A DNA stretch of 40,503 nucleotides. Origin: an uncultured Prevotella sp. Lineage in GTDB: Bacteria > Bacteroidota > Bacteroidia > Bacteroidales > Bacteroidaceae. Where the stretch lies: positions 1 to 40,503 of the forward strand of contig ONYZ01000056.1 of assembly GCA_900322175.1 (NCBI GenBank), in the 5' to 3' direction. The position numbers and the translations under genes were made by a program. Shown one piece after another: positions 8,644 through 38,230 of the stretch (position 1 is its first letter; each line of letters starts with the position of its first letter). The notes under the pieces are model-generated. The model searched no databases. It saw only the letters and a program-made list of their open reading frames with translations, and had not been told where the DNA came from.

Positions 8644-8765
8644 CTTCTTTTTTTGATAATAAGAACATAAGAACATATTTTTTCGTCCTACACAACGCGC
8701 AGCCTTATTTATGTTCTTATGTTCTTTTTATCTAAAACTCATCATGTTCTTTTTATCTAAAAATA
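8644..8765. repeat. family B repeat, copy 2 (menE-menC junction)
   Basis: The full unit runs from TTGATAATAAGAACATAAG to CTTATGTTCTTTTTATCTAA, with core CGCGCAGCCTTATTTATG. It is followed by an extra right arm with CTCATCATGTTC. It overlaps the menC 3' end. The copy at 19326-19475 is nearly the same sequence in inverted orientation. Confidence 0.88.
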
Positions 8766-9817: not shown

Positions 9818-10192
9818 TTATTGTTTATATAAACGATACTTACGTTTGATTTCTATCTTTTGAGCGCCAAAATTAATAAGCAATCCATGATCCAAACGTG
9901 TTGCATGTAGATAGTTCACCAATTGAACCTCATGAGCAGACACCAGATTACTAACTGCTTTCAATTCGAGAACAACTCTATGGTCAACTATCATATCTGC
10001 CCTGAACTCACCCACGACCTCATCTTTGTAATACACATTAAGCGGATATTCCATATCATAAGGGATGTCATGTTTTGACAATTCAACTCCTAAGGCTTTC
10101 TGATAAACAGACTCTAAGAACCCAGGTCCCAATTCCATCCTTACTTGATAAGCACATTCTATGATAATCTTGATCAATCTTTCAATATCCAT
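9818..10192 (-). CDS. GxxExxY protein (PD-(D/E)XK nuclease-like fold)
   Basis: 124 residues from ATG 10192 (MDIERLIKIIIECAYQV). The longer ATG at 10231 lies in a family B repeat and is rejected. The name motif is visible as GPGFLESVY (about 27-35). VLELKAV (E-x-K) fits the catalytic core of the PD-(D/E)XK superfamily to which this family is assigned. The C-terminus HGLLINFGAQKIEIKRKYRL is typical. The molecular role is unknown. It sits between menB and menC, where it has no known pathway role. A half and a full family B repeat bracket it exactly, so it looks like a passenger gene. A remnant of another GxxExxY gene lies at 27288-27407 between family A ends. Confidence 0.88.
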   Translation of the reverse strand: MDIERLIKIIIECAYQVRMELGPGFLESVYQKALGVELSKHDIPYDMEYPLNVYYKDEVVGEFRADMIVDHRVVLELKAVSNLVSAHEVQLVNYLHATRLDHGLLINFGAQKIEIKRKYRLYKQ

Positions 10193-10194
10193 AT

Positions 10195-10291
10195 CTATTT
10201 CTTTTTCTTGATAAAAAGAACATAAGGACATAATTTATTCATCATACAAACCGCGAAGCCTTATTTATGTTCTTATGTTCTTATTATCTAA
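10195..10291. repeat. family B repeat, copy 4 (GxxExxY-menB junction)
   Basis: The full unit has arms TTGATAAAAAGAACATAAGG and CTTATGTTCTTATTATCTAA and core CCGCGAAGCCTTATTTATG. It ends 4 bases before the menB stop and begins just before the GxxExxY start codon. Confidence 0.85.
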
Positions 10292-25161: not shown

Positions 25162-25959
25162 ATGAAGAATATAGTTATTGCGGCAGGTTATGCCACCCGT
25201 TTGGGCGAACTCACTAAGAACTTCCCCAAGCCTCTGCTCAAGATTGGTCAGAACACCATTTTGGGTCGTATGCTCGATGACATCGATAAGATTCCAGATA
25301 TCGATGAGCACATCATTATCACCAACCACAAGTTTGCCCATATCTTCGAGGATTGGGCCAAGGAGGTTTCGAACCCACTTCGTGGGGAAATTTCCCAAAA
25401 TTCTAATCAAAATTTGAAAAATTTCCAGGCGAAGCCTGTTAAAAAACCAATTACAATTGTCGATGATGGAACCGAAACAAACGAAACCCGCCTAGGCGCC
25501 GTGTGCGATCTGCTCTTTGCGATGGATAAACTCAGCATCGATGACGATTTGTTGGTAGTAGCAGCAGACAACTTGCTATTTTTCAGTTTTAGCGAATTCG
25601 TCGATTTCGCCAAGCAGAAAGGCACCTCGTGCATCATGTGCCATGAGCAGCCATCGATCGAAAAGCTTCAGCGCACAGGCGTGGTAGAGCTAGATGAGAA
25701 TAATCGTGTATTGGGCATGGAAGAAAAGCCCCAGCAACCCAAGAGCCACTGGGCAGTTCCACCTTTTTATATATATATGAAGAAAGATCTGGATCTTGTA
25801 CGCCATTCTGTTGAGAATGGTTGCGGCAAAGATGCCCCTGGCAATTTGGCTCACTACATGGTAGAACACACCACCATGCACGCCTGGCCCATGAGCGCCG
25901 GTCGCTTCGATATTGGTAGCCTCGACACGTACAAAGAGGCCGTAGAGAGATTTGGTTAA
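25162..25959 (+). CDS. sugar-1-phosphate nucleotidyltransferase, cassette 1, with in-frame family A insertion
   Basis: 265 residues. The nucleotide-binding signature AAGYATRLGELTKNFPKPLL is at the N-terminus, and VVAADNLLFF is the metal-binding Asp block. With the kinase and epimerase next door, UTP transfer to galacturonate-1-phosphate is the suggested reaction (inference). The paralogue at 36445 (244 residues) aligns almost throughout but lacks residues 71-93, which a 65-bp family A repeat encodes (PLRGEISQNSNQNLKNFQAK). The insertion follows FEDWAKE and ends before PITIVDDG. First gene of the cassette, with its own promoter. Confidence 0.88.
   Translation: MKNIVIAAGYATRLGELTKNFPKPLLKIGQNTILGRMLDDIDKIPDIDEHIIITNHKFAHIFEDWAKEVSNPLRGEISQNSNQNLKNFQAKPVKKPITIVDDGTETNETRLGAVCDLLFAMDKLSIDDDLLVVAADNLLFFSFSEFVDFAKQKGTSCIMCHEQPSIEKLQRTGVVELDENNRVLGMEEKPQQPKSHWAVPPFYIYMKKDLDLVRHSVENGCGKDAPGNLAHYMVEHTTMHAWPMSAGRFDIGSLDTYKEAVERFG
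25374..25438. repeat. family A repeat A1, in frame in nucleotidyltransferase
   Basis: 65 bp with terminal hairpins CCCAC-TTC-GTGGG and CAGGC-GAA-GCCTG. The middle carries GGAAATTTCCCAAAATTC and CAAAATTTGAAAAATTTCC. It is absent from the paralogue at 36445-37179. Confidence 0.9.
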
Positions 25960-25965
25960 ATATAA

Positions 25966-26030
25966 CTCACTTCGTGAGGAAATTCCACAGAATTATGTTC
26001 AAAATTTGATATATTTCCAGGCGCAGCCTG
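25966..26030. repeat. family A repeat A2, between nucleotidyltransferase and kinase
   Basis: 65 bp with hairpins CTCAC-TTC-GTGAG and CAGGC-GCA-GCCTG. It fills most of the 86-base gap. Same length as A1 and A6. Confidence 0.9.
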
Positions 26031-26045
26031 CTAAATTATAAAACG

Positions 26046-27233
26046 ATGAAAGAATATCAATATCACATTTTCTCGCCCTATCGCGTTTGTCCATTGGGCG
26101 CACATGTAGACCATCAGCATGGTTTGGTCACAGGTTTTGCCATCAACAAGGGTGTAGACCTATGGTTCAACATCAATTCCGAAGACTCACTTCGCGAGGC
26201 TAACATCTCCCACGTTCATCTCGAATCGAAAACTTTCGAAGGAGTGGTCGATTTCGATATTGATGCACCCTCTCAGGTGCGCGAACATCATTGGGGCGAC
26301 TACGCCCGTGGTGCCAAGTATGCCCTCAAGAAGCGTTTCAGCCTTTCCAAGGGAATCACAGGCGTCATCCAGGGCTCATTGCCAGTTGGCGGCCTCAGCT
26401 CATCAGCAGCTGTGCTCATTGCCTACGTCATGGCCTTTGCCAAAGCCAACGACATCACCCTTCAGCCCTTCGAAGTTGTTAAAATCGCTTCCGAGGCCGA
26501 GCGCGAGTATATTGGCTTGAATAATGGTCTGCTCGACCAGGCCTGTATCGCCTTGAGCAAAAAGAATCAGCTCTTATTCCTGGATTGCGACTCCAACGAA
26601 TACCGCCTGATACCTTTTGGCGGCCAACAGCAATCAACAGATAATTCTCAATTACCTTTTGAGATTGGCATTTTCTTCAGCGGATTGACCCGCTCATTGG
26701 TCAACAGCGATTACAACCTGCGCGTCTATGAGTGTAAGACCGCCGCATGGAACATGCTCGCCTATACCGAGCAGCCCCTCAAGACGTTCGACAAGACATT
26801 CTTGCGCGACATCCCAAAGGCCACGTTCGAGAAGACTCGCATAGCCATGCCAGCCCGTTTTGCACGCCGTGCAGAGCACTTCTATTCTGAATATCGCCGC
26901 GTGCGCCAGGGTGTTACAGCTTGGGAGACGGGCAATCTCAAACTCTTTGGAAAACTCTCGTTCGATAGTTGCGAGTCCAGTATCCACAACTACGAATGCG
27001 GTTCCCCAGAGCTCATTGCCATCTACGAGATAATGCGCAGCCTGCCCGGAGTCTATGGCGGACGCTTCAGTGGTGCCGGCTTCAAGGGCGCCTGCATCGC
27101 CCTTGTCGACCCAGCTCACAAATCAGACATCGAGCACGAGTTAACCAAACGTTACCTCGCCCAGTTCCCCGAATACGAAAACACCTTCAAAGTATTCTGG
27201 GTCACCCCCGACGACGGCGCCCGCTTTGTATAA
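26046..27233 (+). CDS. GHMP-family sugar kinase, galacturonokinase-like, cassette 1
   Basis: 395 residues. The N-terminal substrate motif PYRVCPLGAHVDHQHGLVTG resembles the CPLGAHxDHQ form of plant galacturonokinase more than the GEHTDY form of galactokinase. The phosphate loop is GSLPVGGLSSSAAV, and the C-terminal GHMP motif is GGRFSGAGFKGACIAL. Phosphorylation of galacturonate at C1 is proposed, supported by the neighbouring UDP-uronate epimerase. Residues near 48-53 (DSLREA) match the left end of family A, exactly where the paralogue at 35214 carries another repeat. TDNSQLP near 200-206 resembles a family C footprint. Confidence 0.85.
   Translation: MKEYQYHIFSPYRVCPLGAHVDHQHGLVTGFAINKGVDLWFNINSEDSLREANISHVHLESKTFEGVVDFDIDAPSQVREHHWGDYARGAKYALKKRFSLSKGITGVIQGSLPVGGLSSSAAVLIAYVMAFAKANDITLQPFEVVKIASEAEREYIGLNNGLLDQACIALSKKNQLLFLDCDSNEYRLIPFGGQQQSTDNSQLPFEIGIFFSGLTRSLVNSDYNLRVYECKTAAWNMLAYTEQPLKTFDKTFLRDIPKATFEKTRIAMPARFARRAEHFYSEYRRVRQGVTAWETGNLKLFGKLSFDSCESSIHNYECGSPELIAIYEIMRSLPGVYGGRFSGAGFKGACIALVDPAHKSDIEHELTKRYLAQFPEYENTFKVFWVTPDDGARFV
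26186..26212. repeat. family A left-end fragment A3 in kinase gene
   Basis: CTCACTTCGCGAGGC matches the left hairpin end of family A. The rest is not recognisable. It occupies the site where cassette 2 carries the unrelated repeat at 35351-35424. Confidence 0.5.
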
Positions 27234-27280
27234 CACGCTTCGCGTGGAAATTATCCAAAATTATAAACAAATTCTACAAA
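27234..27280. repeat. family A left end A4
   Basis: Perfect hairpin CACGC-TTC-GCGTG, then GGAAATTATCCAAAATTAT as in family A. It starts at the kinase stop codon and is followed by the GxxExxY remnant instead of the usual right end. Confidence 0.7.
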
Positions 27281-27287
27281 TGAATCT

Positions 27288-27407
27288 ATGAACTTAACCC
27301 ATAAGCCATATGGTATGTTAATCAATTTTGGGGCAAGTAGTCTATATTCCGAATGGTATTACAGGAATCCCGAGACTAAAGAGATTGAGAAAATAAAATT
27401 ACTGTAA
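27288..27407 (+). pseudogene. 3' remnant of a GxxExxY gene
   Basis: A 39-codon open frame, MNLTHKPYGMLINFGASSLY, then SEWYYRNPETKEIEKIKLL. GMLINFGASSL aligns with the C-terminal HGLLINFGAQKIEIKRKYRL of the intact GxxExxY protein at 9818-10192 and with the usual end of that family. The GxxExxY and E-x-K core is gone. It lies between a family A left end (27234) and a right-end-like hairpin (27438-27449), in the gap between kinase and epimerase. Probably not functional. Confidence 0.75.
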
Positions 27408-27456
27408 AATTTTCGCAAGAAATTTATGTGAAATTTCCGCCGCAAGGCGCTAATAA
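27408..27456. repeat. diverged family A right end A5
   Basis: AAATTTATGTGAAATTTCC leads into the hairpin CGCC-GCAA-GGCG (27438-27449). The arrangement matches AATTTCC plus CAGGC-GAA-GCCTG of complete copies, with different stem bases. Confidence 0.5.
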
Positions 27457-27465
27457 ATAGGAATT

Positions 27466-28608
27466 ATGGATAAAATCAATTTAAACGGAAAGAGTATTTT
27501 AGTAACCGGCAGTGCCGGCTTCATCGGTTCAAATTTAGTCCTCCGTCTGTTCAAGGACATGACCGAAGGCACAATCATTGGCCTGGATAATCTAAACGAT
27601 TATTACGATCCATCACTTAAGGATTACCGCCTTAATGTGATTGAAAAGGCTAAGCCTGCAAATATCAGTTATCAATTTATTAAGGGCGATTTGGCCGATA
27701 AGGCCCTGATCGACAAGTTGTTCGATGACTACAAGTTCGATGTGGTGGTAAACCTCGCAGCTCAGGCTGGCGTGCGCTATAGCATCACCAACCCCGATGC
27801 CTATATCCAGAGCAACCTCATTGGCTTCTACAACATCCTCGAGGCCTGCCGCCACTCAAAAGACGACTCACTTCGTGAGGAAATTTCCCAGAATTCTGGT
27901 CAAAATTTGAATAATTTCCAGGCGAAGCCTGCCCCCTATCAAGGTGTTCAGCATCTGGTCTACGCCTCAAGCTCCAGCGTTTACGGTGGCAACAAGAAAG
28001 TACCCTTCTCTACCGACGACCGTGTAGATAATCCCGTGTCGCTCTATGCAGCCACCAAGAAAAGCAATGAGCTCATGGCACACTGCTACTCCAAGCTCTA
28101 CGACATCCCCTCTACCGGTCTGCGTTTCTTCACCGTCTATGGTCCTGCCGGTCGTCCCGATATGGCCTATTTCGGTTTCACCAACAAGCTGTTGAAGGGC
28201 GAAACCATCCAGATATACAATTATGGCAACTGCCGTCGCGATTTCACCTATGTCGATGATATCGTCGAAGGAATCGTGCGCGTGATGCAGGGTGCTCCAG
28301 AGCGCAAGAAGGGCGAAGACGGGCTCCCTATCCCACCCTATGCCGTGTATAACATCGGTGGCGGTCAACCCGAGAACCTGCTCGACTTCGTAAACATTCT
28401 CCAGGAGGAACTCGTCCGTGCCGGTGTGCTCCCTCAGGACTTTGATTTCGAGGCCCACAAGCAGTTGGTTCCCATGCAGCCAGGTGATGTTCCCACCACC
28501 TATGCCGATGCCACCGCCCTTGAGCGCGATTACGGCTTCACCCCCAAGATCACCCTCCGCGAAGGCCTCCGCCATTTCGCCGAATGGTACGCACAGTTCT
28601 ACAAATAA
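27466..28608 (+). CDS. UDP-glucuronate 4-epimerase, cassette 1, with in-frame family A insertion
   Basis: 380 residues of the extended SDR family. NAD motif TGSAGFIGSN, then GLDNLNDYYDPSLKDYRL, which is characteristic of UDP-glucuronate 4-epimerases (CapI/LpsL type). The active site is SSSSVYGG with YAATKKSNE. RFFTVYGPAGRPDMAYFGFT and RRDFTYVDDIVEG are conserved. It interconverts UDP-glucuronate (made by Ugd) and UDP-galacturonate. Residues 134-156 (SLREEISQNSGQNLNNFQAK) come from a family A repeat. The paralogue at 37193 goes directly from ACRHNPVE to HLVYASSS. Confidence 0.9.
   Translation: MDKINLNGKSILVTGSAGFIGSNLVLRLFKDMTEGTIIGLDNLNDYYDPSLKDYRLNVIEKAKPANISYQFIKGDLADKALIDKLFDDYKFDVVVNLAAQAGVRYSITNPDAYIQSNLIGFYNILEACRHSKDDSLREEISQNSGQNLNNFQAKPAPYQGVQHLVYASSSSVYGGNKKVPFSTDDRVDNPVSLYAATKKSNELMAHCYSKLYDIPSTGLRFFTVYGPAGRPDMAYFGFTNKLLKGETIQIYNYGNCRRDFTYVDDIVEGIVRVMQGAPERKKGEDGLPIPPYAVYNIGGGQPENLLDFVNILQEELVRAGVLPQDFDFEAHKQLVPMQPGDVPTTYADATALERDYGFTPKITLREGLRHFAEWYAQFYK
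27867..27931. repeat. family A repeat A6, in frame in epimerase
   Basis: 65 bp with hairpins CTCAC-TTC-GTGAG and CAGGC-GAA-GCCTG. It is read in the same frame as A1 (LRxEISQNSxQNLxNFQAKP). The other two frames on this strand hit TGA. Confidence 0.92.
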
Positions 28609-28672: not shown

Positions 28673-29254
28673 TCACTTAAACTCCGGATATAAATCTACG
28701 TTAATATCAAATGGACTATCGAAATCCTTCAAGAGCACATGCTTAGTATCCTTCTCTGACAACAGAGCCTTTTCTGCATCAATCTTCCAATCTATTCCCA
28801 GACTATCATCAACGATAGATATTCCATCATCAGCCTCAGGATGATAAAAGTTGTCGCACTTATACTGAAACACCGCAGTCTCCGAGAGTACAGCAAAACC
28901 ATGTGCAAAACCTCTTGGCACAAAGAACTGGCGACGATTCTCCTCTGTAAGTTCTACAGCAATATGCTCACCGTATGTAGGCGAACCCTTACGAATATCC
29001 ACTACCACATCAAGCACAGCCCCCTTCACACAACGCACCAACTTACTCTGTGTGTACGGTGGACGCTGGAAATGCAGACCACGCATAACGCCATAACACG
29101 ACATACTCTCGTTGTCCTGTACAAAATTGATCTTACGCACTTTCTCATCAAATTCCCTCTGCGAAAAACTCTCAAAGAAATACCCCCGCGCATCCTTAAA
29201 CACCCGTGGCTCAATAATCACCACCCCATCAATATTTGTCCTTATTACTTCCAT
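28673..29254 (-). CDS. rfbC: dTDP-4-dehydrorhamnose 3,5-epimerase
   Basis: 193 residues. Cupin-fold epimerase of dTDP-rhamnose synthesis. DARGYFFESFSQREF, FVQDNESMSCYGVMRGLHFQ (catalytic His in RGLHFQ), RKGSPTYGEH and FFVPRGFAHGFAVLS are typical; the C-terminal half has YHPEADDGI. The rfbA, rfbB and rfbD partners are not in the window. It lies downstream of the WbuC gene on the same strand, separated by a family D repeat. Confidence 0.94.
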   Translation of the reverse strand: MEVIRTNIDGVVIIEPRVFKDARGYFFESFSQREFDEKVRKINFVQDNESMSCYGVMRGLHFQRPPYTQSKLVRCVKGAVLDVVVDIRKGSPTYGEHIAVELTEENRRQFFVPRGFAHGFAVLSETAVFQYKCDNFYHPEADDGISIVDDSLGIDWKIDAEKALLSEKDTKHVLLKDFDSPFDINVDLYPEFK

Positions 29255-29345
29255 AACTTATCTTCCTTCTTACATCTTCCCTCTTCCATCTTACATCTTC
29301 CCTCTTACATCACACATCATCCATCATCCATCATACATCTCCGAT
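29255..29345. repeat. family D simple repeat between wbuC-like gene and rfbC
   Basis: Tandem CTTCCCTCTTACATC and ATCCATCATACATC units. It fills the gap and supplies the last codons (MYDG) and stop of the WbuC-type gene. Same units as 31975-32095 and the insertion in menC. Confidence 0.75.
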
Positions 29346-30828: not shown

Positions 30829-31113
30829 ATGTCATTCAACGATGCTGTCATGAACGAGCTGCGGCCTCACTTCAAGGACGAAGAGTCCCTGTTGGTGTGG
30901 CTGGAGGTCAATATGGACCATCTCATGCGTGAATACATCGCTAGGTTTAAAAGACCTAATATTGATGGAGAGCAGTTGCTTAGAAAGCTGAATACGCTGC
31001 CTAATACATCAGCTGGCTTTCTGCAACTCAACGGCATTCTCGGAAAGCAGGGAGCAAGTTTCTCATGGGAAAATCTGCGTGAGGATGCATATTCAGACAA
31101 GTACGGCATATGA
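30829..31113 (+). CDS. probable antitoxin of a PIN-domain toxin
   Basis: 94 residues from ATG 30829 (MSFNDAVMNELRPHFKDEES); ATG 30814 would add MCRYN. The N-terminal half is helical and charged. The C-terminal half NTSAGFLQLNGILGKQGASF and SWENLREDAYSDKYGI resembles the toxin-binding tail of short antitoxins (W..LREDAY). The stop overlaps the PIN gene start by 4 bases (ATGA), the usual arrangement of type II pairs. No DNA-binding motif is recognised with certainty. Confidence 0.75.
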   Translation: MSFNDAVMNELRPHFKDEESLLVWLEVNMDHLMREYIARFKRPNIDGEQLLRKLNTLPNTSAGFLQLNGILGKQGASFSWENLREDAYSDKYGI

Positions 31114-31547
31114 GAGTGTTCCTTGATACCAATGTTATCCTGGAATTCTTCATTGAACGTGAAGATGTTCGGACGGCGGCGCAACTGTTCAACAGACTTA
31201 AGGACGAAAAGGCCGAAATGTACATGTCGGTTGGAAGTTTTTATACTATGCTGTTCTTGATTGATAAGTACTTGAGAAAAGAACTGGGGCTGACAAGTGA
31301 AGTCCGTATTGCCACACTTCGTTCACTTGCAGTGAAAATTGTAAAGGCTATAAGTGTTGCCGAGCATGACAGCGAGAGTTTGTTACGCGGAGTCGAAGAT
31401 ATGCAGTTCAAGGACATTGAGGACAGCTGCCAGTATCAGGCTGCGGTCGCTGCTGGGTGTGATTTTATAATAACATATAATGTGAAAGACTATCCTCATA
31501 CACTCTTGCCCGTCTTTTCTCCAAGTGACTTCTTACAGCATGAGTGA
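31110..31547 (+). CDS. PIN-domain ribonuclease toxin (VapC-like)
   Basis: 145 residues. FLDTNVILEFF at the N-terminus supplies the first Asp of the metal site. FKDIEDSCQYQAAVAAGCDF and IITYNVKDYP carry the remaining acidic residues (ED and the TxNxxD block). Such toxins cleave RNA and are held inactive by the co-translated antitoxin encoded just upstream. It overlaps the downstream four-helix-bundle gene by 8 bases. AT-rich relative to the housekeeping genes, in line with an acquired pair. Confidence 0.9.
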   Translation: MRVFLDTNVILEFFIEREDVRTAAQLFNRLKDEKAEMYMSVGSFYTMLFLIDKYLRKELGLTSEVRIATLRSLAVKIVKAISVAEHDSESLLRGVEDMQFKDIEDSCQYQAAVAAGCDFIITYNVKDYPHTLLPVFSPSDFLQHE

Positions 31548-31974
31548 GATCAGCGAAGCCATACAAGAGAAATGCCTCGCCTTCAGCGACAGAATCATTA
31601 AACTCAATGATTATCTGCTGAAGGAGGCTGCCAATGCAAAACCTACCTACAAGATAGTCAAGGGTAAAAGGGTGTATGAGAAAAGCGTACCGGTTTATCT
31701 CCAGTCAGTATCAAACTTGTGTAATCAGTTATTAAGAGCTGGTACGTCAATTGGCGCAAACAATGCTGAAGCGTCAAGCGCCATTAGTAAAGCAGACTTC
31801 AAATCAAAGTCATATATAGCCTTAAAAGAGGCCCGGGAATCACTCTATTGGCTGGATTTGTTACATAGGAACGGTTACTTGACAGATGTCCAATTCAATA
31901 GCCTCTATACGGACTGCGAAGAACTAGTAAAAGTGTTAACTCACCGATGCAAGAAGCTGGATGGGGTAGAATAA
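31540..31974 (+). CDS. four-helix-bundle protein (23S rRNA insertion-sequence family)
   Basis: 144 residues from ATG 31540 (MSEISEAIQEKCLAFSDRII); GTG 31525 is the longer option. QLLRAGTSIGANNAEASSAI and SKADFKSKSYIALKEARESL plus YWLDLL match the four-helix-bundle family first seen as inserts in 23S rRNA genes and common as passenger genes in Bacteroidota. The role is unknown. An additional segment KPTYKIVKGKRVYEKSVPVY lengthens helix 1-2. It overlaps the PIN gene and is followed at once by a family D repeat. Confidence 0.88.
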   Translation: MSEISEAIQEKCLAFSDRIIKLNDYLLKEAANAKPTYKIVKGKRVYEKSVPVYLQSVSNLCNQLLRAGTSIGANNAEASSAISKADFKSKSYIALKEARESLYWLDLLHRNGYLTDVQFNSLYTDCEELVKVLTHRCKKLDGVE

Positions 31975-35213: not shown

Positions 35214-36432
35214 ATGAAGGATTATCAATATCATATTTTTAGCCCATATGGGGTTTGCCCCTTGGGGGCACACGTTGACCACCAGCATGGCTTGGTGACA
35301 GGTTTTTGCTATCGATAAAGGCGTTGACCTATACTTCGATGTAAATGACCAGACCCCCTCTGGCTCCCCCTGTTTAGGGGGAGAGAAAAAGTCCTCCATA
35401 AACAGGGAGGATTTAGGAGGGTCTCATGTGCATCTGGAGTCGAAGACGTTTGAAGGGGTGGTGGACTTTGAGATAGATAAGCCATCACAAGTTCGTGAGC
35501 ACCATTGGGGTGATTATGCTCGTGGTGCTAAGTATGCGCTGCGTAAGCGATTTGAGTTGAGTCATGGTATAGAGGGTGTCATTCAAGGCTCGCTGCCAGT
35601 GGGTGGTCTGTCATCGTCAGCTGCTGTGCTGATTGCATATGTTATGGCATTTGCTAAGGCGAATGACATTACCTTGAAACCGTTTGAGGTGGTGAAGATT
35701 GCATCGGAGGCGGAGCGTGAGTACATCGGATTGAACAATGGTTTACTTGATCAGGCGTGTATTGCACTGGGCAAGAAAGATGGTCTGTTGTTCCTCGACT
35801 GTGATTCGAATGATTGGCGCATTATTAAGCGCAATGCTGATATGCCAGAGTTTGAGATTGGTATCTTCTTCTCTGGACTGACACGTTCGCTGGTGAACTC
35901 AGACTATAATCTTCGTGTGTATGAATGTAAGACGGCTGCATGGAATATGTTGGCTTATACAGATCAGCCATTGAAGACGTTCGACAAGACATTCTTGCGC
36001 GATATTCCGAAGACGACGTTTGAGAAAACGCGGATTGCTATGCCACAGCGCTTTGCCCGTCGTGCGGAGCACTTTTACTCAGAATACCGTCGTGTGCGTC
36101 AGGGCGTGACGGCATGGGAAACGGGGAATCTGAAACTGTTCGGAAAGTTGAGTTTTGACTCTTGTGAGAGTAGTATCCATAACTATGAGTGTGGTTCACC
36201 AGAGCTCATAGCTATCTATGAGATAATGCGCCAGTTACCTGGAGTGTATGGTGGTCGCTTCTCTGGAGCTGGCTTCAAAGGAGCTTGTATTGCCCTCGTA
36301 GATCCAGCCTATAAGGAGGAAATTCAGAAGGTGCTCACTGAGAAATATCTGGAACAGTTCCCTGAATACGAAAAGACATTCCAGGTGTTCTGGGTGAAGC
36401 CGGATGATGGGGCAAGATTCTTGGATAATTGA
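35214..36432 (+). pseudogene. galacturonokinase-like GHMP kinase, cassette 2, frameshifted
   Basis: The gene starts MKDYQYHIFSPYGVCPLGAH, then VDHQHGLVTG, and stops at TAA 35318. An extra T in GGTTTTTGCT (cassette 1 has GGTTTTGCC) breaks the frame. Reading resumes in the next frame (AIDKGVDLYFDVN) and continues through GSLPVGGLSSSAAV and GGRFSGAGFKGACIAL to 36432. A 74-bp repeat (35351-35424) adds about 25 residues. The N-terminal substrate site is cut from the catalytic body, so the protein is likely lost unless this T is a sequencing error. About 85-90 percent similar to the intact copy by eye. Confidence 0.8.
35351..35424. repeat. family F palindromic repeat inside kinase 2
   Basis: 74 bp bounded by AGACCC and GGGTCT, with inner hairpin CTCCCCCTGTTTAGGGGGAG and arms TCCTCC/GGAGGA. 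It sits at the position where kinase 1 carries the family A fragment A3. Confidence 0.8.
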
Positions 36433-36444
36433 AAATTGTGAAGT

Positions 36445-37179
36445 ATGAAAGACATTGTTATTGCTGCTGGATATGCGACAAGGCTTGGAGAGTTGACGAA
36501 GAACTTCCCAAAGCCATTGTTGAAGATTGGTGAGAATACTATCTTGGGAAGGATGTTGGATGATATCGACAGGATTCCTGAGATTGATGAACATATCATT
36601 ATTACGAATCATAAGTTCGCTGGTATCTTCGAAGACTGGAAGAAGGATTTGCACTATAGCAAGCCTATTTCCATCGTTGATGATGGAACAGGGACAAACG
36701 ATACTCGTCTTGGAGCTGTATGCGATTTGTTGTATGCCATGGATAAGCTCCACATCGATGATGATTTGTTGGTGGTTGCAGCGGACAACCTGCTGTTCTT
36801 CTCATTTCAGGAGTTTGTGAACTTTGCCAAAGAGAAACAGACAAGTTGCATCATGTGTCATGAGCAGCCTTCGATAGAGAAACTACAAAGGACAGGAGTC
36901 GTGGAACTGGATGCCAATAATAAGGTACTTGGTATGGAGGAAAAACCTCAGGTGCCAAAGAGTCACTGGGCTGTGCCACCATTCTATATCTATCTAAAGA
37001 AAGACCTCGATTGGGTACGTCATTCTGTAGAGAATGGTTGTGGGAAGGATGCTCCTGGAAATCTCGCTCACTATATGGTGGAACATACCACCATGCATGC
37101 GTGGCCCATGAGTGCCGGAAGGTTTGACATCGGTAGCCTCGATACATATTATGAGGCGGTAGAGAAATATGGTAAGTAA
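36445..37179 (+). CDS. sugar-1-phosphate nucleotidyltransferase, cassette 2
   Basis: 244 residues. AAGYATRLGELTKNFPKPLL signature and VVAADNLLFF metal block, nearly the same protein as the one at 25162 but without the family A insertion: FEDWKKDLHYSKPISIVDDG is continuous. This gives the ancestral form of the family in this genome. Synonymous codons differ widely between the copies. It lies 12 bases after the kinase and 13 before the epimerase. Suggested reaction: UTP plus uronate-1-phosphate to UDP-uronate (inference). Confidence 0.88.
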   Translation: MKDIVIAAGYATRLGELTKNFPKPLLKIGENTILGRMLDDIDRIPEIDEHIIITNHKFAGIFEDWKKDLHYSKPISIVDDGTGTNDTRLGAVCDLLYAMDKLHIDDDLLVVAADNLLFFSFQEFVNFAKEKQTSCIMCHEQPSIEKLQRTGVVELDANNKVLGMEEKPQVPKSHWAVPPFYIYLKKDLDWVRHSVENGCGKDAPGNLAHYMVEHTTMHAWPMSAGRFDIGSLDTYYEAVEKYGK

Positions 37180-37192
37180 CGAACACTAATTT

Positions 37193-38230
37193 ATGAAGAC
37201 AATATTAGTAACTGGATCGGCAGGGTTTATAGGTTCGAACCTTGTGTTGCGTCTTTTTAAGGAGATGCAGGAAGGAACCATTGTCGGACTAGATAATCTG
37301 AATGATTATTATGATCCTTCACTGAAAGACTATCGCCTCAGTGAGATTGAAAAGGCGAAGCCTGCGGGAATTGAATATGAGTTCGTGAAGGGTGACTTGG
37401 CTGACAAGGCGCTGATTAATGAACTGTTCGAGAAGTACCACTTTGACGTGGTAGTGAACCTTGCTGCACAGGCAGGTGTACGCTATAGCATTACCAATCC
37501 TGATGCCTATATCATGAGTAACATGATAGGTTTCTATAATATACTGGAGGCTTGCAGGCATAACCCTGTGGAGCATTTGGTATATGCTTCTTCAAGTTCT
37601 GTATATGGTGGCAATAAGAAAGTTCCATTCTCTACAGATGACCGTGTAGATAATCCTGTGTCGCTGTATGCAGCTACAAAGAAGAGCAATGAGCTGTTTG
37701 CTCACTGTTATTCCAAGTTGTATGATATTCCTACTACTGGATTGCGCTTCTTTACGGTGTATGGTCCTGCCGGTCGTCCCGATATGGCATACTTCGGCTT
37801 CACCAACAAACTGCTGAAGGGTGAGACCATCCAGATATTCAACTACGGCAACTGCCGTCGTGATTTTACGTATGTCGATGACATCGTAGAGGGCGTGTAT
37901 CGTGTGATGCAAGGTGCTCCAGAGCGCAAGAAGGGTGAAGACGGCTTACCCATCCCTCCATATGCTGTCTATAACATCGGTGGTGGTCAGCCAGAGAACC
38001 TGCTGGACTTCGTGAACATCCTGCAAGAAGAGCTGGTTCGTGCCGGTGTGCTGCCTGCTGACTTCGACTTCGAGGCCCACAAGAAGCTTGTCCCCATGCA
38101 GCCAGGAGACGTACCCACCACCTATGCCGATGCCACAGCCCTTGAACGTGATTTCGGGTTTACTCCCAAGATAACGTTGAGAGAGGGATTGAGAAAGTTC
38201 GCTCAATGGTATAAAGAGTTCTATGGTTAA
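37193..38230 (+). CDS. UDP-glucuronate 4-epimerase, cassette 2
   Basis: 345 residues. TGSAGFIGSN, GLDNLNDYYDPSLKDYRL, SSSSVYGG, YAATKKSNE and GPAGRPDMAYFGFT as in the first copy, with no insertion (ACRHNPVEHLVYASSS). The first 550 bases use AT-rich synonyms like the rest of cassette 2. From about 37755 to 38140 the DNA is much closer to copy 1 in GC-rich synonym choice. Last gene of the cassette. Confidence 0.92.
   Translation: MKTILVTGSAGFIGSNLVLRLFKEMQEGTIVGLDNLNDYYDPSLKDYRLSEIEKAKPAGIEYEFVKGDLADKALINELFEKYHFDVVVNLAAQAGVRYSITNPDAYIMSNMIGFYNILEACRHNPVEHLVYASSSSVYGGNKKVPFSTDDRVDNPVSLYAATKKSNELFAHCYSKLYDIPTTGLRFFTVYGPAGRPDMAYFGFTNKLLKGETIQIFNYGNCRRDFTYVDDIVEGVYRVMQGAPERKKGEDGLPIPPYAVYNIGGGQPENLLDFVNILQEELVRAGVLPADFDFEAHKKLVPMQPGDVPTTYADATALERDFGFTPKITLREGLRKFAQWYKEFYG

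Follow-up and report, generated by a model that had tools for sequence, protein, structure and literature searches.

Short double-hairpin elements lying in frame in Prevotella genes as possible derivatives of a hairpin-ended GxxExxY element

Introduction

What kind of DNA element can lie in frame inside protein-coding genes and also settle between them? This question is raised by a stretch of 40,503 nucleotides (the window, meaning here the whole stretch that was analysed) from an uncultured Prevotella sp. (contig ONYZ01000056.1, assembly GCA_900322175.1), in which a sugar-nucleotide operon carries three copies of a 65-bp double-hairpin element, two within genes and one between genes. Palindromic elements that are read in frame are familiar mainly from Rickettsiales, and to our knowledge no mobility gene has been found for them there. 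The evidence from our computational analysis tips somewhat towards the reading that the 65-bp copies are non-autonomous derivatives, lacking an open reading frame (ORF), of a hairpin-ended element that carries a GxxExxY gene and behaves like a Rickettsia palindromic element (RPE).

Structure of the repeat unit

A first-pass annotation of the window had described three copies of exactly 65 bp (A1, A2 and A6; Table 1), and both their length and their positions were confirmed. BLAST with one copy as the query found exactly three places in the 3.37-Mb genome of origin (E values of 2.2e-29, 1.9e-20 and 3.0e-18). The two ends of the element are one unit in inverted orientation, the right hairpin being the reverse complement of a left-type unit. 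Each unit consists of a 5-bp stem (mostly C-NNN-C), a 3-nt loop (mostly TTC), the complementary arm and GAAATTATTCAAAATT or a near variant, an AT-rich tail that points inward and lies inside the element.

Table 1. Elements, host genes and related features in the window
Feature	Position	Strand	Basis or remark
A1, 65-bp double-hairpin element, in frame in nucleotidyltransferase gene	25374..25438	+	BLAST and ORF reading
A2, 65-bp double-hairpin element, between nucleotidyltransferase and GHMP kinase genes	25966..26030	+	no copy in the corresponding gap of G258
A3, 14-nt fragment resembling left hairpin, in frame in GHMP kinase gene	26186..26199	+	weak on its own
A4-A5, 216-bp decayed GxxExxY element	27234..27449	+	left hairpin CACGC/GCGTG, right hairpin CGCC/GGCG
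GxxExxY gene remnant inside A4-A5, last 39 codons and stop	27288..27407	+	protein and DNA alignment
A6, 65-bp double-hairpin element, in frame in epimerase gene	27867..27931	+	BLAST and ORF reading
Host gene, NTP_transferase family nucleotidyltransferase, 265 aa	25162..25959	+	PF00483
Host gene, GHMP kinase	26046..27233	+	PF00288, PF08544
Host gene, NAD-dependent epimerase/dehydratase, 380 aa	27466..28608	+	PF01370
Second three-gene cassette, no element found	35428..38230	+	GHMP kinase 35428-36432, nucleotidyltransferase 36445-37179, epimerase 37193-38230

A covariance model of the unit found seven units in the window's own genome, namely both ends of A1, A2 and A6 and one at 27234. The model had been trained on 24 rows that included all seven, and its search of this genome therefore adds only that no further copy was found. 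An eighth, weaker unit, ending at 27449, is the inverted partner of the unit at 27234. Beyond the 2.6-kb operon stretch, the model detected no unit in this genome, which is 83% complete; this confinement points to acquisition or expansion of the units together with the cassette. The short fragment A3, weak by itself, agrees with the left hairpin at 13 of 14 bases, with one stem pair broken; the protein loop at this place, NSEDSLREANISHVHLESK, compares with the shorter ANDGHVHLESK and SDNGHVHLESK of the relatives G258 and G135, respectively.

Covariation of the stem arms

The two arms of the stem changed in step. Among 24 hand-picked units, all 120 stem cells were paired, 41 of them via two-sided changes. 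When 122 distinct units were aligned by fitting to the covariance model, 99.5% of 610 stem cells were paired, with 232 two-sided changes and not a single one-sided change, as compared with 24–60% paired cells in slid controls of the same alignment. In a stem-blind test, 151 places matched the tail with at most two mismatches; 122 of these carried a perfect 5-bp Watson-Crick stem, representing 17 stem sequences, five had four pairs, and G-U was found in none of the 139 places with at least three Watson-Crick pairs. The loci were gathered by tail pattern and model and form a non-random set. Because one-sided changes and G-U pairs were absent, the pattern points to arms whose complementarity is maintained at the DNA level, fold-back copying being one possibility, more than to selection acting on an RNA helix.

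The first-pass annotation had pointed to the stem pairs CCCAC/GTGGG, CTCAC/GTGAG and CACGC/GCGTG, all of which were indeed paired, and had argued that a structure was maintained as DNA or RNA. Comparison of A1 with A6 supports structure over peptide: the paired stem changes replace residues (P by S, G by E), indicating that the peptide is not what is conserved. The single-strand fold z-scores of A1, A2 and A6 were -3.15, -2.78 and -3.20 as DNA and -2.67, -2.01 and -2.52 as RNA.

In-frame copies and their host genes

A1 and A6 are both read in frame as LRxEISQNSxQNLxNFQAKP within open frames of 265 and 380 aa. In G258 the operon contains these three genes in identical order and has none of the insertions; it is as empty as the window's own paralogues at 36445 and 37193, in which the first-pass annotation had already seen no such segment. 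Relative to the empty orthologue in G258 (L199), the window nucleotidyltransferase is longer by a net 22 aa (65+1 bp). The claim that the copies are insertions is upheld by these empty orthologues, but the nucleotidyltransferase site is filled in two other species, one of which is also filled at the epimerase site, indicating that some insertions are old or recurrent at one place. A further empty site was found at primase site 2 in G297, and presence at epimerase site 2 in the metagenome-assembled genome (MAG) RUG515 and at the primase sites varies between relatives.

By inspection, ten in-frame copies were recognized in three gene families, six genomes and two reading frames. The nucleotidyltransferase carries one each in the window, G135 and RUG515; the epimerase carries one in the window and two in RUG515; and a CHC2 zinc-finger primase-like protein carries one in G157, two in Xylanibacter brevis and one, altered by an extra repeat inside it, in G297. 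The totals per genome were accordingly two (window), one (G135), three (RUG515), one (G157), two (X. brevis) and one (G297). Copies of the window, G135 and RUG515 read EIxQN or EILxN, and the primase copies read NxSK. The single reading frame reported in the first pass therefore applies to both coding copies of the window and not to the family as a whole. In addition, when the primase-like genes of G157 (L145) and X. brevis (L149) are compared, that of G157 has some 59 further codons inserted in frame and bordered by a repeated FGLHL.

Among neighboring unit pairs within 260 bp, 49 of 82 were oriented '+-' (the loci overlap); the number of distinct inverted-pair elements was 47. A strict count that required at least 40 aa of ORF on each side placed six of the 47 distinct inverted-pair elements within ORFs and 41 outside. 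All six coding copies were frame-open, with two of the six frames open, whereas the 41 non-coding elements had no open frame in 16 cases, one in 20 and two in five. A length of 2 mod 3 was seen in 6/6 coding and 22/41 non-coding elements, a difference that is suggestive only, the copies being non-independent.

Because dN/dS outside the insert was low against the empty genes of G258 (0.029 for the nucleotidyltransferase and 0.089 for the epimerase, over a span that includes time preceding the insertions), both host genes look maintained, under purifying selection. Against the nucleotidyltransferase of G135, which bears an insert too, pN/pS was 0.105, with synonymous change saturated. When aligned with the epimerase, the solved homologue 5u4q has two residues that are adjacent in its sequence (120/121) opposite residues 133–160; the nucleotidyltransferase loop falls outside the alignments with its solved relatives.

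The GxxExxY-bearing long form

The fourth element of the operon, A4-A5, sits directly behind the GHMP kinase stop codon, as does its counterpart in G135. The gene remnant inside it is identical to the C-terminus of the hairpin-flanked GxxExxY protein of G135 at 31 of 39 residues (E 5e-23), the DNA of the two elements is alignable at both ends, and 13 of the 15 bases preceding the hairpin agree. The window operon thus holds an internally deleted GxxExxY element. In the window the next gene is the epimerase, and in G135 and RUG515 it is the nucleotidyltransferase. In the latter two genomes, an intact GxxExxY gene (PF13366) lies between two inverted units, with the GHMP kinase gene on one side and the nucleotidyltransferase gene on the other, and in G269 an intact GxxExxY gene lies between inverted units measuring 654 bp end to end. 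G169 is a probable fourth gene-bearing case, with one strong end (53 bits) and one weak end (26 bits). The unit and the GxxExxY gene are therefore genuinely linked in three genomes or more, and in other genomes they are not. The double-hairpin palindrome of the first-pass annotation does have two hairpin ends, but it is not a bare palindrome, being tied to a gene that is carried between such hairpins.

PF13366 matches were found in 11 of 14 model-positive genomes (56 matches) versus 7 of 16 others (10 matches). When inverted-repeat flanks were scored, 38 of 43 GxxExxY genes lay above the 95th percentile of 54 control ORFs. In a position-based flank test, a score above the same cut-off (11.35) was reached by 17/22 GxxExxY genes, 17/23 S23 (23S_rRNA_IVP) genes and 3/38 controls; 11/22 GxxExxY and 12/23 S23 genes exceeded the 95th percentile of this second test itself. 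The flanking repeats differ from gene to gene, and some are direct rather than inverted. Close homologues of the hairpin-flanked GxxExxY gene had inverted-repeat flanks in 11/18 cases versus 5/119 controls, and a hairpin plus AT-rich tail on both sides in 4/18 versus 0/119; these counts are lowered by flank segments that start too far out where the match begins inside the tail (mainly L374), and L380, being short, and L392 were excluded.

The window also has an intact GxxExxY gene (PF13366) at 9818-10231 on the minus strand, bordered by the inverted repeat AGATAATAAGAACATAAG / CTTTTGTTCTTATTATCT. An S23 gene at 31525-31974 (plus strand) stands directly behind a PIN-domain gene (31110-31547) and is followed by CATCCATTATACTTCATCC-type repeats. 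S23 genes in relatives are often flanked by inverted repeats; that of the window is not, by the flank test used.

Distribution in Prevotella and beyond

With the covariance model at an E value of 0.01, the unit was found in 38 of 299 genomes of the genus, and six genomes had at least 20 or at least 21 matches each; strict filters were used, and per-genome counts near 21 are lower bounds. This search, which the first-pass annotation had recommended, thus bore out a spread through a subset of Prevotella but gave no copies outside the operon in the window's own genome. In the other genomes the unit is found in either orientation and with different stems, both inside unrelated genes and between genes. 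A GTDB-wide scan with a strict pattern, possibly leaving close relatives of the window genome outside its reach, yielded 25 DNA stretches, 23 of which are titled Prevotella, Prevotellaceae or Xylanibacter. Named carriers are X. brevis ATCC 19188 and the MAGs RGIG4424, RGIG3793, RUG446, RUG515 and RUG12472. The model was applied to 10 of the 25 stretches; of the remaining two, one titled 'uncultured bacterium' gave a model match, and the other, from a Gammaproteobacteria MAG (L273), gave none and was taken as chance rather than as a family member.

Sequence likeness alone reached less far. BLAST with one copy found matches in only 3 of 100 genomes, because the stems and the inner part vary. Places matching a single pattern with one mismatch were largely chance, since a reversed control pattern also matched many genomes once. 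Genomes G207, G232 and G172 were rich by sequence pattern yet had no model match, and G134, poor by pattern, had five. One pattern searched against viral_contigs gave 0 exact matches, and a phage origin was set aside; likewise, the sole Rfam match was at chance level (E 0.69) and outside the copies, and an assignment to a known RNA family was dropped.

The identity between 65-bp copies was 83–91% within the window, 84–91% among the three coding copies of RUG515 and 80–86% at the same site between genomes. The ranges overlap, and this small excess within genomes may hint at copying or conversion that took place once the species had diverged. G110 has intergenic tandem arrays (L038, L041 and L043) of many hairpin units with differing stems, in which the tail repeats within a unit change together (CAAAATT to CAAAATC).

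Variable loops of the operon

Among 50 distinct nucleotidyltransferase sequences, the first loop had at least 14 residues in 19 and the second at least 18 in 20, and among 17 distinct epimerases the loop had at least 20 residues in six. The sample favors long loops, some loci having been chosen for unusual frame length, and the counts are not population frequencies. The first-pass annotation had considered that the peptide might be fixed at the same place in all homologues from other genera, or that copies might be lacking outside this cassette; instead, the loops were short in 31/50 nucleotidyltransferases and 11/17 epimerases, and copies were frequent in other genomes. The other inserts look like several unrelated repeats (TPSGSPCLGG, LRPQTSD, NTNLTNQTN, PPKQGESEGV and SNSKSSNSK). 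The loops seem to tolerate, and to record, repeated in-frame entry of small repeats.

Small ORFs between repeats were also noted in the gaps of this operon. In G037 (L340), a small ORF, presumably related to DUF559 endonucleases, lies between the repeats CCCTGTTTAGGGGG and TCCTCCCTAAGCAGGGAGGA in the interval that separates the GHMP kinase gene from the nucleotidyltransferase gene, and sequences like these two are read in frame in adjoining nucleotidyltransferase loops. In G149 (L341), an S23-like ORF lies between AATTGACAATTGACAATT-type inverted repeats in the gap between the nucleotidyltransferase and epimerase genes; the epimerase loop of G037 (L210) contains a AATTGACAATTGACAATT-like sequence that is read in frame.

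Proposed mechanism and rival explanations

We propose a family of small mobile elements whose ends are inverted copies of one hairpin-and-tail unit and whose fuller members carry, between such ends, a GxxExxY gene of the PD-(D/E)XK nuclease family PF13366. The GxxExxY protein may recognize or cut the hairpin ends, and may promote copying both of its own element and, acting in trans, of the short derivatives, with a preference for nearby sites. Insertions in coding DNA would persist only if they were in frame and in a tolerant loop. A decay series could then run from the full element to an internally deleted element and, presumably, on to remnants of 65–86 bp. The role of the GxxExxY protein as the mover is our inference; hairpin-ended elements with a GxxExxY-bearing long form are the best reading.

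Several findings weigh against this proposal. No movement step was seen, nor was a clear target-site duplication found at the window copies. Model-positive genomes G218, G309 and G320 had no PF13366 match, two of them being 93–95% complete, and G110 and G157 had only one match each. Most GxxExxY genes are flanked by inverted repeats other than this unit: among 28 GxxExxY sources, unit matches occurred only in the two from G135, and among 20 further sources only in G269 and G336, the matches in G336 not enclosing the gene. The gene could thus be a passenger of repeats. In G041, hairpin modules lie inside 104–250-bp elements with GTAA...TTAC ends, which we take to be IS66-like; seven were found, six of them with an 8-bp flanking duplication (at most one mismatch) and three flagged for a GGAAATT tail. 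This case looks like ordinary transposition of miniature inverted-repeat transposable elements (MITEs), with the hairpin module apparently riding on another system, which weakens GxxExxY as the only mover. Since two species share the nucleotidyltransferase insertion site, some copies may have been inherited rather than newly inserted, and the dN/dS values reach back beyond the insertions. Finally, the lowest-energy folds of A1 and A6 do not form two end hairpins but pair the two ends with each other (CTTCGT with GCGAAG), through complementary loops; the two-hairpin fold was obtained for A2 and for the copies tried from G157, X. brevis and G135.

In a rival that we consider rather unlikely, palindromic repeats of the RPE or repetitive extragenic palindromic (REP) kind spread by an unknown host or transposase route and the GxxExxY gene is a passenger that settles in any palindromic repeat family. 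The many different inverted repeats around GxxExxY genes, the three model-positive genomes without PF13366 and the G041 module carried by elements with 8-bp duplications all agree with it. It accounts less well for the three genomes in which the gene lies between exactly such hairpins, two of them with the gene between the GHMP kinase and nucleotidyltransferase genes, for the decayed GxxExxY form beside the short copies in the window, and for the tendency of close homologues to keep inverted-repeat flanks. If the mover were instead the genome's REP-associated tyrosine transposase (RAYT, of the Y1 HUH kind), the elements would be REP doublets forming hairpins (REPINs). They do resemble these in being inverted pairs of hairpin units, PF01797 matches were found in 8/10 model-positive versus 8/20 other genomes (10/12 versus 6/18 when grouped by pattern), and passages of one study describe a Bacteroidetes-specific TnpA_REP subclass 2.6 with 'atypical secondary structures' (PMC6006769). 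This rival is nevertheless weakened to the point of being improbable: none of 12 PF01797 loci (at most one per genome) showed the unit with three or fewer mismatches, GT[AG]G stood near the hairpin foot in only one of 138 distinct units, and model-positive G336 and G134 had no PF01797 match. An origin from RAYT or REPIN was set aside, PF01797 being somewhat commoner where the elements occur but its genes not being seen flanked by units.

Even less probable, in our estimate, is a device acting on the transcript, namely a terminator, an mRNA stabilizer or a segment excised like the intervening sequence (IVS) of 23S rRNA, whose peptide would never appear in the protein. The position of copies within and between genes of one operon, the 23S_rRNA_IVP gene 3.6 kb away and the 23S IVS itself, described in parts of one report as palindrome-bordered, ORF-carrying and removed by RNase III (PMC4990558), would suit it; however, excision needs no open frame, whereas each of the six strict coding copies has an open frame and is 2 mod 3 in length, and the missing G-U pairs are ill-suited to selection on RNA. 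That there was no mobility at all, the variable loop having been inherited with the cassette and diversified by slippage and gene conversion, is largely refuted and can hardly be credited. In its favor, the window, G135 and RUG515 share a filled site, many lineages have variable loops, and gene conversion could explain why copies within a genome are alike. Against it, other genomes have the unit inside unrelated genes as well as between genes, in either orientation and with different stems, and occupancy of epimerase site 2 (RUG515) and of the primase sites varies between relatives.

The derivation of the 65-bp copies from a hairpin-ended GxxExxY element can be widened. As a tentative suggestion, which we regard as possible but doubtful, GxxExxY proteins would be the mobility enzymes of an entire class of Bacteroidota elements, as yet undescribed, that end in hairpins or inverted repeats. 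Each element would have its own repeat, and the miniatures would keep feeding new in-frame segments into proteins; the loops of one operon would then record dozens of such events from several repeat families.

Comparison with known systems

The resemblance to RPEs drawn in the first-pass annotation stands as one of behavior: the way of life is alike, with coding copies, in frame, and intergenic copies. Passages of one report (PMC3767692) describe RPEs inside ORFs, at exposed positions and without destruction of the frame, mention orthologues that may hold different RPE groups near one another, and present Rickettsia and Wolbachia palindromic elements which, like those here, are short palindromic repeats between genes and in frame within ORFs. 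The present elements differ from RPEs in belonging to another phylum, in having both ends formed by copies of one hairpin-and-tail unit, in using more than one reading frame and in having a GxxExxY-bearing long form. The element would thus work like an RPE without being assigned as one, the likeness being one of behavior.

REPs within genes have been described for several species, and CGTC repeats from Bacteroidetes, in passages of another report (PMC3733652). As far as those passages go, REPs, bacterial interspersed mosaic elements and REPINs with their RAYT share with the present elements inverted pairs of hairpin units, arrays (as in G110) and occasional in-frame intragenic copies (PMC3733652). 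In contrast to REPINs, GT[AG]G at the hairpin foot (within 8 nt before the stem) was limited to the one unit in 138 and CGTC occurred in 0/138, the constant tail lies inside the element, and no flanking RAYT was found at the 12 PF01797 loci. Judged by sequence, the inverted-pair feature is present but the GT[AG]G foot and a unit-flanked RAYT are not, and the element fails to qualify as a REPIN. Separately, G157 has a RAYT-like gene (L084) flanked on either side by a hairpin plus GAATTCATTCAAAAACCTGTCCCCATGATCA in direct orientation, possibly a REP of its own.

MITEs of the IS66 type have GTAA ends and an 8-bp target duplication. The present elements share with MITEs that they are short, non-autonomous and provided with inverted ends, but the window copies end at hairpins, without GTAA ends and with no clear duplication. 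The 23S IVS of Coxiella is described in part of one report as an ORF between complementary ends (PMC4990558), and the 23S IVS with S23 resembles the present long form as an ORF-carrying insertion bordered by inverted repeats at a tolerated place. Here, by contrast, the host is protein-coding DNA, the cargo is GxxExxY rather than S23, the insert is kept in frame and excision was not seen; the copies of the window lie in and between protein genes and not in 23S rRNA.

In the open-access literature, where GxxExxY proteins are sparsely covered, we found neither the unit nor any Prevotella palindromic element in frame described, and no account that treats GxxExxY as a gene of mobile elements; an earlier report in a subscription journal is possible. 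A way of life like that of the Rickettsiales elements would now be met in gut Bacteroidota, together with a candidate enzyme, an apparent decay series down to a 65-bp remnant and empty sites. X. brevis ATCC 19188 is a culture-collection strain with two in-frame copies, and how selfish DNA keeps entering proteins and lengthening their loops becomes a testable question.

Other features of the window

Similar N-terminal peptides, of the pattern M[FS][LF]CS[FY]Y, open ORFs at 8676 and 9813 on the minus strand and at 8711 and 14416 on the plus strand. At 29248-29338, a CTTACATCTTCCCTCTTCCATC minisatellite stands at the start of a minus-strand ORF, which we take to be an RmlC-type epimerase.

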